Below, piece after piece: positions 705-15,031 of a DNA stretch of 64,000 nucleotides. The translations under genes were made by a program, and so were the position numbers. Position 1 is the stretch's first letter. Every line of letters begins with the position of its first letter. The notes beneath the pieces were generated by a model. The model was not told where the DNA came from, searched no databases, and was given only the letters and a program-made list of their open reading frames with translations. Origin of the DNA: Natronomonas gomsonensis (GTDB lineage: Archaea > Halobacteriota > Halobacteria > Halobacteriales > Haloarculaceae); assembly GCF_024300825.1 (NCBI RefSeq), contig NZ_CP101323.1, positions 2,294,001-2,358,000 of the forward strand. The letters run 5' to 3'.

Positions 705-2390
705 GTGCCAAACGAGGAACCGGCGCGTCTCGCCACCGAACTCGCCAGCCACGGCTACACCGCCGACCGCGAGGCGATTACGCTGCTCGCCCGCGCGGAG
801 AACCCCGCGGAGGCGCTGTTGGTGGCTGTCGAGGCTACGCCCGACAACGCGCTGAAACTCTCGGCGGCCGACGTTCGTGACGCCCTCGACGGCACGCCAC
901 GCGCCCGCCGAGACCCGATTTCGGGAAGCGACGGGAACACGGCGGCCGAATCGACGGCGGCCGACGGCGTGACGGACACCACAGCGACCGACCCGGGTGA
1001 AGCGGCCACATCGGGGACCGCAGCGACTTCCGAAGCGTCGCCGACGCCGAAAACGGGAACTGAGCGGTCGGCGGAAGACCCCTCTGTTTCAACTGGAACT
1101 CGCCAGTCCGAATCGAGCGGTTCGGGAGGTGCGTCTCCAGTTGAAACGAAGGGGTCTTCGAGCGGGCGAGACACCGACCCTTCGCTGCGCTCGCTGGAAA
1201 TCGGCAACGACATGACCGGCCACTCGACCGGAACCGGCGAGTACGAGGACTTCGTGGCGACGTTTCGGGACCGCTACGACCGGCTTTCGGGGAAACTGAA
1301 GGGTCGGGTCAACCACCGCAACGCGACGGCGCTGCAGGCAAGCCCCGGCGGTGGCGACGCCGGCATGGTCGGGATGGTCTCGGACGTCCGCTCGACCGCA
1401 AACGGCCACTGGATTATCGAGTTAGAGGACACGACGGGCGTGTTCCCCTGTCTCGTGATGAAGGACAAGGACATCGCCGCCCTCGTCGAGGAGTTGCTGT
1501 TCGACGAGGTCATCGCCGTCGACGGGACGCTCTCTGACGACGGGAGCATCATGTTCGTCGACAGCCTCCACTTCCCGGACGTCCCCCGGACGTACAAGCC
1601 ATCGACGGCGGACCGCCACGTTCAGGCCGCGCTCATCAGCGACGTCCACGTCGGCAGCGAGGAGTTCATGGTCGACGCCTGGCAGCGGTTCACCTCGTGG
1701 CTCCACACCGAGGAGGCAGAGAACATCGAGTATCTGCTGTTGGCCGGTGATATGGTCGAGGGCGTCGGCGTCTACCCCGACCAAGACGACGAACTCGACA
1801 TCGTCGACATCTTCGACCAGTACGAGGCGTTCTCGGAGCACCTCAAGGAAGTTCCCGGCGACATGGAAATCGTCATGATACCCGGCAACCACGACGCGGT
1901 CCGGCTCGCGGAGCCGCAACCCGGCTTCGACGAGGAGTTGCGCGACATCATGACGGCCCACGACGCCCGCATCGTCTCGAACCCGGCGATGGTCTCCGTC
2001 GAGGGTGTCTCGGTGTTGATGTATCACGGCGTCTCCTTAGACGAGGTCATCGCCGAACTCCCCGAGGAGAAGGCCAACTACGACGAACCGCACAAGGCGA
2101 TGTACCAACTGCTGAAGAAACGCCACGTCGCCCCGCAGTTCGGCGGTCACACCCGACTGGCTCCCGAGGAGAAGGACTACCTCGTCATGGACGAGGTGCC
2201 AGACGTGTTCCACACCGGCCACGTCCACAAACTCGGGTGGGGGAAGTACCGGAACGTGCTGGCGGTGAACTCCGGCTGTTGGCAGGCCCAGACCGACTTC
2301 CAGAAGAGCGTCAACATCGACCCCGACGCCGGGTTCGCGCCGATTCTCGACCTCGATACGCTGGATATGACGGTGCGGAAGTTCACCTGA
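705..2390 (+). CDS. polD1: DNA polymerase D small subunit DP1 (3'-5' exonuclease subunit)
   Basis: Proofreading exonuclease subunit of the euryarchaeal replicative polymerase PolD; partner of DP2 encoded at 3280-6879. The start is GTG at 705. Residues 1-60 form a helical N-terminal domain. Residues about 65-185 are a Ser/Thr/Asp/Gly-rich disordered linker. An OB-fold follows (about 215-285), then a calcineurin-like phosphoesterase domain (about 305-560). Metal-binding motifs are visible: DVHVG near residue 313, GDMVEG near 349, GNHD near 394, and GHVH near 503. The 561-residue length is normal for haloarchaea. The linker coding region contains a 24-nt near-perfect inverted repeat that resembles the chromosomal ORBs (separate entry), so this stretch may be under DNA-level as well as protein-level selection. 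DP1 and DP2 are separated only by two small genes. Confidence 0.97.
   Translation: MPNEEPARLATELASHGYTADREAITLLARAENPAEALLVAVEATPDNALKLSAADVRDALDGTPRARRDPISGSDGNTAAESTAADGVTDTTATDPGEAATSGTAATSEASPTPKTGTERSAEDPSVSTGTRQSESSGSGGASPVETKGSSSGRDTDPSLRSLEIGNDMTGHSTGTGEYEDFVATFRDRYDRLSGKLKGRVNHRNATALQASPGGGDAGMVGMVSDVRSTANGHWIIELEDTTGVFPCLVMKDKDIAALVEELLFDEVIAVDGTLSDDGSIMFVDSLHFPDVPRTYKPSTADRHVQAALISDVHVGSEEFMVDAWQRFTSWLHTEEAENIEYLLLAGDMVEGVGVYPDQDDELDIVDIFDQYEAFSEHLKEVPGDMEIVMIPGNHDAVRLAEPQPGFDEELRDIMTAHDARIVSNPAMVSVEGVSVLMYHGVSLDEVIAELPEEKANYDEPHKAMYQLLKKRHVAPQFGGHTRLAPEEKDYLVMDEVPDVFHTGHVHKLGWGKYRNVLAVNSGCWQAQTDFQKSVNIDPDAGFAPILDLDTLDMTVRKFT
1074..1159. repeat. ORB-like inverted repeat inside polD1
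   Basis: Arm A (1074-1097) and the reverse complement of arm B (1136-1159) agree at 22 of 24 positions; the spacer is 38 nt and GC-rich. Arm B reads TCCAGTTGAAACGAAGGGGT, essentially the origin recognition box seen at 12313-12342 (minus) and 12582-12612. The G-runs of the two arms point outwards, as in the oriC pair. It lies in the low-complexity linker of DP1. That it binds Orc1 is inference. Confidence 0.7.
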
Positions 2391-3279: not shown

Positions 3280-6200
3280 ATGCGAGACGACGACGAAGCG
3301 TACTTCGAGCGGTTGGAGTCCGGCCTCGACGAGGCGATGGCACTCGCCCGGGAGGCCCGACAGCGCGGCGGCGACCCCACCGAGGACGTCGAAATCCCCA
3401 TCGCCAAGGACATGGCCGACCGCGTCGAGAACATCCTCGGCATCGACGGCGTCGCAGAACGCGTCCGAGAGATGGAAGAGGATCCCGACCTCTCCCGGGA
3501 GGAGGCTGCCCTCGAACTCGCCGAGGACTTCGCCGATGGGAAAGTCGGTGACTACGACTCCCGTGCCGGGAAGGTCGAAGGCGCCGTCCGGACCGCGGTG
3601 GCGCTGTTGACCGAGGGCGTCGTCGCCGCACCCATCGAGGGCATCGACCGCGTCGAAATCCTCGACAACGACGACGGCACGGAGTTCATCAACGTCTACT
3701 ACGCCGGACCGATTCGCTCCGCGGGCGGGACCGCACAGGCACTGTCGGTGCTGGTAGCGGACTACACGCGGACGCTCATCGGCATCGAGGAGTTCAAACC
3801 CCGCGACGAGGAGGTCGAACGCTACGCCGAGGAGTTGGCGCTGTACGACAACGAAACCGGCCTGCAGTACAGTCCGAAGGACGCCGAGACGAAGTTCATC
3901 GCCCGGAACATGCCCATCATGCTCGACGGGGAGGCGACGGGCGACGAGGAGGTCTCGGGCTTCCGGGATTTGGAGCGGGTCGACACCAACAACGCCCGCG
4001 GTGGGATGTGTCTCGTCTTGGGGGAGGGTATCGCCCAGAAGGCACCGAAGATTCAGCGATACACCTCCCAACTGGAGGAGGTCGACTGGCCGTGGCTTCA
4101 GGACCTCATCGACGGGACCTACAAGAAAGACAACGGGGAGAGCGGCGACGCCGAGACGGACGACGACAGCGACGAAGGGGCCACAGAGGAGTCCGAGGAC
4201 GCCGAACCCGAGGAAGACGCCGAATCCGAGGGCCACGACGGCCCGCCGCGTCCGGAGCCCTCGACGAAGTTCCTCCGGGACCTCATCGCCGGCCGGCCCG
4301 TCTTCGGCCACCCCTCCGAAGAGGGTGGCTTCCGACTCCGCTACGGTCGCTCGCGGAACCACGGCTTCGCGACCGCAGGCGTCCATCCGGCGACGATGCA
4401 TCTCGTCGACGACTTCCTCGCGACCGGCACCCAAATCAAGACCGAACGCCCGGGGAAAGCCGCCGGCGTCATCCCCGTCGACAGCATCGAGGGGCCGACG
4501 GTCAAACTCGCCAACGGCGACGTTCGCCGCATCGACGACCCAGCAGAGGCCTTGGAGATACGCAACGGCGTCGAGGCCATCCTCGATTTGGGCGAGTACC
4601 TCGTCAACTACGGCGAGTTCGTCGAGAACAACCACCCACTCGCCCCGGCTTCCTACACGCCGGAGTGGTGGAAACACGACCTCGCGGCCGCCGGCGCCGA
4701 CGTACAGGCCCTGGAGGACTCCCCGCGCGTGGACCTCGAACATCCCGAAACCGAACGGGTCCTCGAGTGGGTCGACGAGTACGACGCCCCGCTTCACCCC
4801 GAACACACACCCCTCTGGCACGACCTCGATATCGAGCGGTTCGAGGCGCTGGCCGAGGCGGCCAGCGACGGCCACTGGGCTGAATCCGACGGCGCCGCCG
4901 TCGCACCGAGCGAATCGACCACGGCCGCCAACCGCACGCTCGTCCTCCCGCGAACCGAGCCCGTCCGGGAGGCGCTGGAGGTCCTCATCGTCGAACACAC
5001 CCAAGGCGAGGAGACGCTGACGGTCCCCGACGCCGTGCCGCTGGTGCGTTCGCTCGGCCTCACCGACGACCTCGAACGGACGTGGGAGTCGGGCGAGCTG
5101 TCGTCAGCCGCTCGAAACTACGACGGCGGCGAAAACGCGGTGAAGGCCGTCAACGAGGTCGCACCCTTCGAGATACAGGAGCGAGCGCCGACACGCATCG
5201 GCTGTCGGATGGGTCGCCCCGAGAAATCCGAGAAGCGAGACCTCTCGCCGGCGGTTCACACCCTGTTTCCCATCGGCGAGGCCGGCGGTTCCCAGCGCGA
5301 CATCGCCGCCGCCGGCAAACACGCCGAGACAATGCAGGACACCCCAGGGATGGTCGAGGTGCAGGTCGGACGGCGGAACTGCCCCGATTGTGGCACCGAG
5401 ACTCACCGCGCTCGCTGTCCCGACTGCAACGCCGTCACCGACCCCCACTACGTCTGCTACGACTGCGATATCGACGTCGAACCGGACGAGGCCGGCCGGG
5501 CTATCTGTCCGCGCTGTGAGCGGGAGGCCGACGCCGTCCAGACGAAGACCATCGACGTCAACGACGAGTACCGAACGGCGCTGTCGAACGTCAAAGAACG
5601 GGAAAACGCCTTCGACGTGCTGAAAGGCGTCAAGGGACTCACCTCCAAACACAAGGTCCCCGAACCCATCGAGAAGGGCGTCCTTCGGGCGAAGAACGGC
5701 GTCTCGTCGTTCAAGGACGGCACCGTCCGCTACGACATGACCGACCTCCCCGTCACGTCGGTCCGGGCGTCGGAACTCGACGTGACCGTCGGCCAACTGC
5801 AGGCGCTGGGCTACGAGGAGGACATCCACGGCCAACCGCTGACCCACGAGGACCAACTGGTCGAGTTGCGGGTTCAGGACGTGGTGCTCTCCAATGGCGC
5901 CGCCGAACACATGATTCGGACCGCCGACTTCGTCGACGACCTGCTGGAGCAGTACTACGGCCTCGACCGCTTCTACGAACTCGAGGACCGCGACGACCTC
6001 GTCGGCGAGTTGGTGTTCGGGATGGCACCCCACACCTCAGCCGCAGTTGTCGGAAGAGTGATTGGTTTCACCTCGGCGGCGGTCGGATACGCTCATCCGT
6101 ACTTTCACGCCGCGAAGCGTCGGAACTGTGACGGTGACGAAGACTGCGTCATGCTCCTCATGGACGGACTTCTCAACTTCTCGAAGTCTTTTCTCCCGAA

Positions 6201-6879
6201 CCAGCGCGGAGGGCGGATGGACGCGCCGCTGGTCATGTCCTCGCGCATCGACCCCGCCGAAATCGACGACGAGGCCCACAACATGGACATCGCCTCGTCG
6301 TACCCGCGGGAGTTCTACGAGGCGACGCGTGAGATGGCCGACCCCGGCGAGGTCGAGGACCTCGTCCAAATCGGCGAGGACACGCTCGGAACCGACGACC
6401 AGTACCGCGGGTTCGAACACACCCACGACACGACCGACATCGCGCTCGGGCCGGACCTCTCGGCGTACAAGACGCTGGGCGACATGATGGAGAAGATGAA
6501 CGCCCAACTGGAACTGTCGCGAAAACTCCGGTCGGTCGACGAGACCGACGTGGCCGAGCGGGTCATCGAGTACCACTTCCTTCCGGACATCATCGGCAAT
6601 CTGCGGGCCTTCTCCAGACAGGAGACGCGGTGTCTCGACTGCGGGGAGAAGTTCCGTCGGATGCCGCTGACCGGCGACTGCCGGGAGTGTGGCGGCCGGG
6701 TGAACCTCACCGTCCATCAGGGGTCGGTGAACAAGTACATCGACACCGCGATTCAGGTCGCCGAGGAGTACGGCTGTCGGGAGTACACGAAACAGCGGTT
6801 GCAGATTCTCGACCGCTCGCTGGAGTCCATCTTCGAAGACGACACCAACAAACAGAGCGGGATTGCGGATTTCATGTGA
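3280..6879 (+). CDS. polD2: DNA polymerase D large subunit DP2 (catalytic subunit)
   Basis: Polymerase subunit of euryarchaeal PolD, a double-psi beta-barrel enzyme unrelated to family B polymerases. 1199 residues. An acidic low-complexity insert lies at about residues 285-325. A zinc cluster CPDC/CPDC/CYDC/CPRC lies at about 700-750. The catalytic block HPYFHAAKRR then NCDGDED lies at about 939-955, with the Asp residues that bind metal. A C-terminal zinc finger CLDC/CREC lies at about 1115-1135 before the PCNA-interacting tail (GIADFM). No intein is present at the usual N|C site (between 6126 and 6127), although many halophiles carry one there. Codons from about 6031 to 6215 are noticeably richer in A/T third positions than the rest of the gene (see findings). 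It starts directly after the stop of the DUF296 gene. Confidence 0.98.
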   Translation: MRDDDEAYFERLESGLDEAMALAREARQRGGDPTEDVEIPIAKDMADRVENILGIDGVAERVREMEEDPDLSREEAALELAEDFADGKVGDYDSRAGKVEGAVRTAVALLTEGVVAAPIEGIDRVEILDNDDGTEFINVYYAGPIRSAGGTAQALSVLVADYTRTLIGIEEFKPRDEEVERYAEELALYDNETGLQYSPKDAETKFIARNMPIMLDGEATGDEEVSGFRDLERVDTNNARGGMCLVLGEGIAQKAPKIQRYTSQLEEVDWPWLQDLIDGTYKKDNGESGDAETDDDSDEGATEESEDAEPEEDAESEGHDGPPRPEPSTKFLRDLIAGRPVFGHPSEEGGFRLRYGRSRNHGFATAGVHPATMHLVDDFLATGTQIKTERPGKAAGVIPVDSIEGPTVKLANGDVRRIDDPAEALEIRNGVEAILDLGEYLVNYGEFVENNHPLAPASYTPEWWKHDLAAAGADVQALEDSPRVDLEHPETERVLEWVDEYDAPLHPEHTPLWHDLDIERFEALAEAASDGHWAESDGAAVAPSESTTAANRTLVLPRTEPVREALEVLIVEHTQGEETLTVPDAVPLVRSLGLTDDLERTWESGELSSAARNYDGGENAVKAVNEVAPFEIQERAPTRIGCRMGRPEKSEKRDLSPAVHTLFPIGEAGGSQRDIAAAGKHAETMQDTPGMVEVQVGRRNCPDCGTETHRARCPDCNAVTDPHYVCYDCDIDVEPDEAGRAICPRCEREADAVQTKTIDVNDEYRTALSNVKERENAFDVLKGVKGLTSKHKVPEPIEKGVLRAKNGVSSFKDGTVRYDMTDLPVTSVRASELDVTVGQLQALGYEEDIHGQPLTHEDQLVELRVQDVVLSNGAAEHMIRTADFVDDLLEQYYGLDRFYELEDRDDLVGELVFGMAPHTSAAVVGRVIGFTSAAVGYAHPYFHAAKRRNCDGDEDCVMLLMDGLLNFSKSFLPNQRGGRMDAPLVMSSRIDPAEIDDEAHNMDIASSYPREFYEATREMADPGEVEDLVQIGEDTLGTDDQYRGFEHTHDTTDIALGPDLSAYKTLGDMMEKMNAQLELSRKLRSVDETDVAERVIEYHFLPDIIGNLRAFSRQETRCLDCGEKFRRMPLTGDCRECGGRVNLTVHQGSVNKYIDTAIQVAEEYGCREYTKQRLQILDRSLESIFEDDTNKQSGIADFM

Positions 6880-15009: not shown

Positions 15010-15031
15010 GAACCCCTTCGTTTCGTATGGA
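15010..15031 (-). repeat. ORB-like box 6 downstream of orc1
   Basis: On the minus strand it reads TCCATACGAAACGAAGGGGT, differing from ORB 2 (TCCACCCGAAACGAAGGGGT) at two of 20 positions. It is isolated, 225 bp after the orc1 stop. Confidence 0.65.

Follow-up and report, generated by a model that had tools for sequence, protein, structure and literature searches.

The window analysed here (the whole stretch of 64 kb) raises the question of why a pair of boxes of the kind found at the replication origin oriC1 should be written into the codons of polD1, which encodes the small subunit of polymerase D. Little is settled about how archaea coordinate the supply of initiator and polymerase with the firing of origins. 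The genes of the window run in the order polD1 (705-2390), polD2 (3280-6879), a MutS-like gene, an Orc-like gene, oapC/B/A, oriC1 and orc1 (13028-14785), and the pair-bearing polD1 lies 11 kb from the oriC1 boxes.

The original prediction described two 24-nt arms (1074-1097 and 1136-1159) as inverse complements at 22 of 24 positions. This is correct, and the arms, which stand 38 nt apart, form the sole inverted repeat of at least 22/24 with a spacer of 20-60 in the 64 kb window. The host gene is also what it was said to be, since its product carries the DNA_pol_E_B and calcineurin-like phosphoesterase domains of DP1. The best segment of this protein is 92% identical to that of locus L046 (Natronomonas gomsonensis), its nearest row in the tree, and the boxes are located in a low-complexity linker preceding the OB fold. 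The features of the pair are as follows:

705..2390, plus strand: polD1, DP1 small subunit of DNA polymerase D (open reading frame, Pfam DNA_pol_E_B and Metallophos, alignment).
1079..1097, minus strand: R arm, ORB core TCCAGTTGAAACAGAGGGG, then TC, with no second G-run (exact match, codon bias).
1098..1135, no strand: spacer of 38 nt, free in sequence and fixed in length (alignment of loci).
1136..1154, plus strand: F arm, ORB core TCCAGTTGAAACGAAGGGG, then TC (exact match, codon bias).

On the plus strand the R arm provides the codons for DPSVSTG, and the F arm those for (S)PVETKG(S). The pattern TCCANTKGAAACNNNGGGG matches both arms exactly (1079-1097 minus, 1136-1154 plus). At three or fewer mismatches it has 13 matches in the window against 2.34 expected in shuffles, and the only exact ones among these are the two polD1 arms and the oriC box at 12322. 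The pair is inverted in the same orientation as the ORBs at oriC, and both arms hold the mini-ORB core and the GGGG string of oriC1-type ORBs. The claim that the arms are oriC boxes held as far as GGGGT but not after it, where the second G-run usual in origin boxes is absent. At the DNA level, we consider it practically certain that the arms constitute an oriC1-type ORB pair.

A genome-wide pattern scan had been named as a means of refuting the boxes, and its outcome did not do so. The pattern TCCANYNGAAACNNNGGGG has five exact matches in the 3.65 Mb genome (the polD1 pair, two flanking oriC, and one before orc1), and at one mismatch or fewer it has 15 matches compared with 1 for a backward control. 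Inspection by eye of nine one-mismatch loci (L006-L011, L013-L015) found no recognised replication gene except orc1 beside L013. The boxes and the gene at the origin end of the scan are the following:

12322..12340, minus strand: left oriC1 ORB, second G-run present.
12584..12602, plus strand: right oriC1 ORB, second G-run present.
13000..13018, plus strand: ORB upstream of orc1, its end 9 nt short of the ATG; second G-run absent.
13028..14785, plus strand: orc1/cdc6, the oriC1 initiator gene, with Cdc6 lid and winged helix domains.
13249..13267, plus strand: one-mismatch ORB within orc1, read as SPPEAEGSS in the codon phase of the polD1 F arm.

The two oriC1 ORBs enclose an AT-rich stretch that is seen directly in the sequence, and the best match of the orc1 product among solved chains is 2qby_A (E 1e-106). 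The ORB at 13000..13018 is probably an autoregulatory box of orc1. The ORB at 13249..13267 is the counterpart of a codon-embedded ORB in the orc1 of Natrialbaceae, and a search for an R partner to it in the orc1 of the window found none. A further one-mismatch ORB is present in the gap downstream of orc1 (window 15013-15031).

Conservation was traced in 81 polD1 genes, the window gene and the best 80 of 162 relatives, a set that favours close kin. The F arm is exact in 56 of the 81 genes and is found at three or fewer mismatches in all 81, with the proviso that the F arms with 2-3 mismatches (11/81) may include chance matches. The R arm is exact in 41/81 and within three mismatches in 70/81; both arms are exact in 31/81 and both within three mismatches in 70/81. 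These 70 two-arm genes have arm offsets of 57 bp (62 genes), 54 (four), 69 (three) and 72 (one), all multiples of three. Since the linker flanking the arms varies widely in length (18-116 and 22-101 residues), the spacing of 19 codons in 62/70 genes stands out. The 57-bp offset amounts to about 5.4 helical turns and gives no clear geometry, and in the 70 two-arm genes the distance from the polD1 start codon down to the pair is 203-497 nt. The expectation that the boxes would persist in relatives while the protein of the linker drifts is thus borne out.

An exact inverted core pair occurs in 169 of the 391 genomes of the class, representing 50 of 86 genera, with 0 for the backward control; 222 of the 391 are without it. 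In all of the 30 loci fetched from the 169 pair-bearing genomes to check location, the exact pair falls within the polD1 reading frame, while second matches in two genomes (G109 and G389) fall in neither polD1 nor orc1. A further 22 in-class polD1 loci, picked to reach other families and scored at three or fewer mismatches, include 13 with two arms at 57 bp (among them f2, f6, f7, f8 and f9) and two with pairs at 54 or 69 bp. The pair is absent in the other seven, including both loci of f11, a family whose genomes have ORBs though these two polD1 loci lack the pair. Outside the class, no pair was found in 241 sampled genomes of the same phylum, and eight outgroup polD1 loci, in which the linker is short or missing, yielded six without a match and two with a single 3-mismatch match. 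Within it, the R arm was lost in 11 of the 81 genes, all from Halorubrum (11 of its 12 loci), and the arms of Haloferax polD1 are degenerate, which indicates that the pair is not essential everywhere. Overall, the pair is widespread in polD1 of the class Halobacteria.

Conserved DNA within a gene could be a by-product of conserved peptide. The motifs DPSVSTG and SPVETEGS are both kept in the drifting DP1 linker, and SPVETxGS is read in the same phase from orc1 of Natrialbaceae, observations that lend this explanation some support. However, the codons at the fixed arm residues are extreme and opposite to polD1's own usage: valine is GTT in 57/58 cases (background 0.06) and proline CCA in 71/73 (0.07), and the same holds for ACT (53/58; 0.04), GGA (57/64; 0.08), TCT (32/35; 0.03), GAA (77/77; 0.26) and GGG (67/73; 0.23). 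When 454 columns of polD1 are ranked by codon bias, the top five are arm codons and 11 arm codons stand in the top 22. Peptide-preserving recoding of the linker (400 synonymous versions per gene, drawn by its own codon use) gave both boxes in 0 of 32,400 cases, the R arm in 0 and the F arm in 8; these counts, like those of the codons, are not independent, the sequences being related, and the contrast is nevertheless extreme.

Furthermore, DPSVSTG and SPVETEGS are different peptides, yet they equal the two strands of one DNA motif, and a Hef-like gene of Haloferax reads the same box in another phase, as SSTGNEGV. The phase used in polD1 and orc1 would also avoid the basic residues that one of the other phases gives (e.g., LQSKRRG), which would be unfavourable in acidic haloarchaeal proteins. 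The objection that the boxes are a coding by-product consequently failed, rare codons being fixed and the pair never regenerated by recoding. Codon choice, recoding and the second phase in Haloferax refute the peptide motif as sole explanation, and we give a mere by-product almost no credence. Selection fixes the boxes as DNA, against normal codon use, and a dual constraint of peptide and DNA in the polD1 linker is possible. A chance repeat is ruled out by rarity in the genome, wide conservation and the codon tests.

A pair inverted in the manner of oriC might be a cryptic or auxiliary origin, or a site of helicase loading. The observation that no AT-rich element lies between the arms, made originally in the window, is upheld across relatives: mean GC of 70 spacers is 0.65, against 0.66 for polD1 genes, and an AT-rich unwinding element is absent. 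The pair is also situated within an open reading frame.

The extended, halophile-specific G-string of oriC1-type ORBs is a further point of difference, and it divides the boxes into two classes. We sorted ORB sites by place in 60 named loci with orc1 and in the window, and scored a second G-run as at least five G in the seven bases at positions 21-27 (from, or after, the T of GGGGT). Of the 134 sites assigned by rule to the origin class, which may include some promoter boxes, 117 have it, compared with 0/52 orc1-promoter boxes, 0/13 sites sorted as inside orc1 (one of which, L090, looks promoter-like) and 4/130 polD1 arms with one mismatch or fewer. Position 21 is C in 60/70 F arms and 45/60 R arms compared with 5/134 origin boxes, and core positions 5-6 are GT in 56/70 F and 47/60 R arms of polD1. 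In 52 of 61 loci an ORB stops 5-20 nt short of the start codon of orc1, in no case with a second G-run, and is a probable autoregulatory box.

In Haloarcula hispanica, mutating either extended G-string is reported to have abolished oriC1 function (PMC3936714). The polD1 boxes therefore keep the core without the part needed for firing, and we take them as regulatory, like the box before orc1. With a spacer GC of 0.65 and the G-string absent in most polD1 arms, the origin reading is not supported; a cryptic origin or loading site is very improbable, and it is highly likely that the pair is no origin of any kind.

Which protein would bind the pair? The Orc1 of oriC1 is the expected ligand because the arms have the ORB core and because a linkage between the type of ORB and the type of Orc is reported (PMC3528665), and we regard binding by this Orc1 as likely on these grounds. 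Alternatively, the variant TCCAGTYGAAACGRAGGGGTC might be recognised by another protein, for instance a nucleoid protein or some other Orc/Cdc6 paralogue. The arms do part from origin boxes beyond GGGGT, where they mostly have C at position 21, and the genome has at least seven Orc1/Cdc6-like loci besides orc1, so that another member of the family could be the ligand. The core in polD1 is nevertheless that of oriC1-type boxes, which by the reported linkage points to the cognate Orc. The short form of the box also stands before orc1, and all exact matches to the strict pattern in the genome are at polD1 or at oriC/orc1. Recognition by some other protein is accordingly improbable in our judgement.

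The position of polD1 relative to the origin bears on what the bound initiator might do. In 60 of 80 named loci no more than 10 kb separates orc1 from polD1; loci that show all of these elements have the order oapCBA, oriC, orc1, polD1, and the pair follows the oriC boxes at about 3-6.5 kb. This arrangement would suit a reservoir that titrates the initiator. Such a sink for Orc1 would be replicated shortly after firing of oriC1 and would damp re-initiation, like datA of Escherichia coli or oriC2D of Haloarcula hispanica, and its placement in polD1 would be historical. Exact boxes are few, and the two in polD1 are thus a sizeable share of the five; an ORB-rich region downstream of cdc6E is moreover reported to control oriC2 negatively (PMC3936714). 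Against such a sink, there are two sites only, compared with 11 in oriC2D, and no dense cluster, and a plain sink needs neither the 57-bp offset nor the inverted order.

The boxes also remain in polD1 genes far from the origin. By subtraction of positions, the distances between exact polD1 pairs and the oriC1 boxes come to 130, 85, 80, 37, 13 and 11 kb. The distance from polD1 to these boxes is 130 kb in Halorarius litoreus, 85 in H. halobius, 80 in Halosegnis rubeus and 37 in one Natrarchaeobius (in another the two are adjacent), 12 kb in one Haladaptatus and 11-17 kb in Natronomonas; in three Halobellus it is 32-37 kb, with arms at 0-3 mismatches and an offset of 69. Mean mismatches are 0.13 (R) and 0.47 (F) in 15 relocated genes, against 1.45 and 0.45 in 60 adjacent ones, the latter set including the R-arm losses of Halorubrum; the R arm is thus better preserved after relocation and the F arm equally well. 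Of the relocated loci 13 of 15 are secure, since L062 and L066 are near contig ends that could hide an adjacent oriC. A tree count of eight relocation changes has five unplaced loci (L047, L048, L052, L058 and L061) set as not relocated, and therefore does not give the number of independent moves.

A function requiring closeness to oriC would be expected to decay on relocation, and no decay is seen in relocated polD1. The stress that the original prediction laid on closeness to the origin is therefore weakened by pairs that persist 32-130 kb from oriC1, and so is its plain datA-like sink, for which two sites are few; a role bound up with polD1 itself is the better fit. Note that a sink for the initiator that works at any position would likewise account for boxes kept in relocated genes. 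As the chief alternative to an operator, titration has in our estimate perhaps one chance in four, and it may act together with an operator.

The codon test and the relocations establish that the boxes are selected within the gene and move with it, and a precisely spaced pair kept in polD1 far from the origin suggests that the initiator controls polD1. The most economical reading, which parallels the box before orc1, is an intragenic operator: on comparative sequence evidence, we propose with a probability of roughly 0.55 that the pair is a non-origin, codon-embedded Orc1/Cdc6 operator. That it acts on the expression of polD1 has about even odds. Two Orc1 monomers would bind the pair via its core, where they could not license an origin because the extended G-string and the unwinding element are missing; once bound, they might restrain or gate polD1 transcription, a roadblock some 200-500 nt inside the gene being one way to do so, and the supply of polymerase D would be kept in step with the level of initiator. 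The box upstream of orc1 would likewise let Orc1 control its own gene. It speaks against the operator that the pair is within a gene and not at a promoter, which is unusual.

Codon-embedded ORBs are not confined to polD1. The orc1 of Natrialbaceae has one in its N-terminal extension (L064, L085, L097, L098, L100, L103, L108, L111, L115, L116, L122, L232). Among 20 such sites, all from loci selected because they carry such a box, 19 share the codon phase of the polD1 F arm. For 10 of the 19 the best upstream partner core (four or fewer mismatches) stands at 48 bp (8) or 57 bp (2); partners at three or fewer mismatches occur in 7/19 compared with 13 in 950 random stretches. One genome has both an orc1 pair and a polD1 pair as exact inverted cores in frame. 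The Haloferax ORB read as SSTGNEGV lies in another codon phase in the Hef-like (ERCC4 helicase-nuclease) gene in 10 of 10 loci (L070 1834, with matching sites in L069, L073, L075, L076, L083, L084, L086, L087 and L102), the ERCC4 assignment coming from a family search on L070. An exact ORB in polD2 of Halapricum (L112 2066) is read DPSVS like the polD1 R arm. The same box DNA thus occurs in several genes, and different peptides are read from it.

Some single boxes lie beside or within other genes. In Haloferacaceae, a single exact ORB stands beside a CGI-121-like gene adjoining a Hel308-like helicase gene (L070 18888, L102 16729, L065 20395, L212 and L214), identities confirmed for L070 (CGI-121) and L102 (helicase) only. 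Genus g6 (L205-L207) has a single exact ORB 51-68 kb from oriC1, which in L207 is beside an RNase_H_2 gene, and oapC-like frames in two genera contain exact ORBs (L112 4656 and 4719; L080 2838).

We tentatively suggest, at somewhat less than even odds, that the second class of ORB (core and GGGGT, no extended G-string) represents an ancestral Orc1 regulatory circuit separate from licensing. If so, the initiator would set the supply of itself and of fork enzymes through boxes before orc1, inside orc1 and polD1 and, in some genera, in the Hef-like gene and polD2, and whether a box carries the extended G-string would be the code that marks it as an origin or a regulatory box. A conserved stretch of atypical codons in the gene of a replicative polymerase is significant in this respect, as it suggests a sequence rule that distinguishes licensing boxes from regulatory ones.

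To our knowledge, a pair of boxes embedded throughout a class in the coding sequence of a replicative polymerase subunit has no known precedent. Among open-access papers searched by title and abstract we met neither an account of ORBs in polD1 or any other coding region nor a genome-wide study of Orc1 binding in haloarchaea. As described in their reports, two surveys of haloarchaeal ORBs looked at intergenic regions beside orc/cdc6 genes (PMC3528665, PMC4595724), and boxes in coding sequence would be missed by surveys of this scope.

Comparison with known systems places the polD1 pair close to several of them. It shares with haloarchaeal oriC1-type ORBs the core TCCANYNGAAAC, GGGGT, the inverted order and the outward G-runs, and differs from them in its location in coding sequence, in lacking an unwinding element and an extended G-string, and in its offset of mostly 57 bp. 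The oriC2D of Haloarcula hispanica similarly consists of non-origin initiator boxes near an origin, but is described as a titrating, ORB-rich intergenic cluster of 11 boxes downstream of cdc6E, compared with two codon-embedded boxes in polD1; in that account it works with oriC2 and Cdc6E, not oriC1, and involves no polymerase gene (PMC3936714). The datA locus and the DnaA boxes of the dnaA promoter in E. coli, as outlined in the same report (PMC3936714), are off-origin initiator boxes that feed back on initiation or expression, although they belong to the bacterial DnaA system. In Vibrio cholerae, crtS and RctB are reported to provide a distant initiator site and classes of site that differ in effect; crtS, however, is on Chr1 and controls the firing of Chr2, with an initiator different from that of the polD1 case. 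Finally, Orc1-2 of Saccharolobus islandicus, reported as a non-initiator paralogue of the DNA damage response unlike the Orc1 of oriC1, illustrates that an archaeal protein of the Orc1 family can regulate gene expression (PMC9738581).
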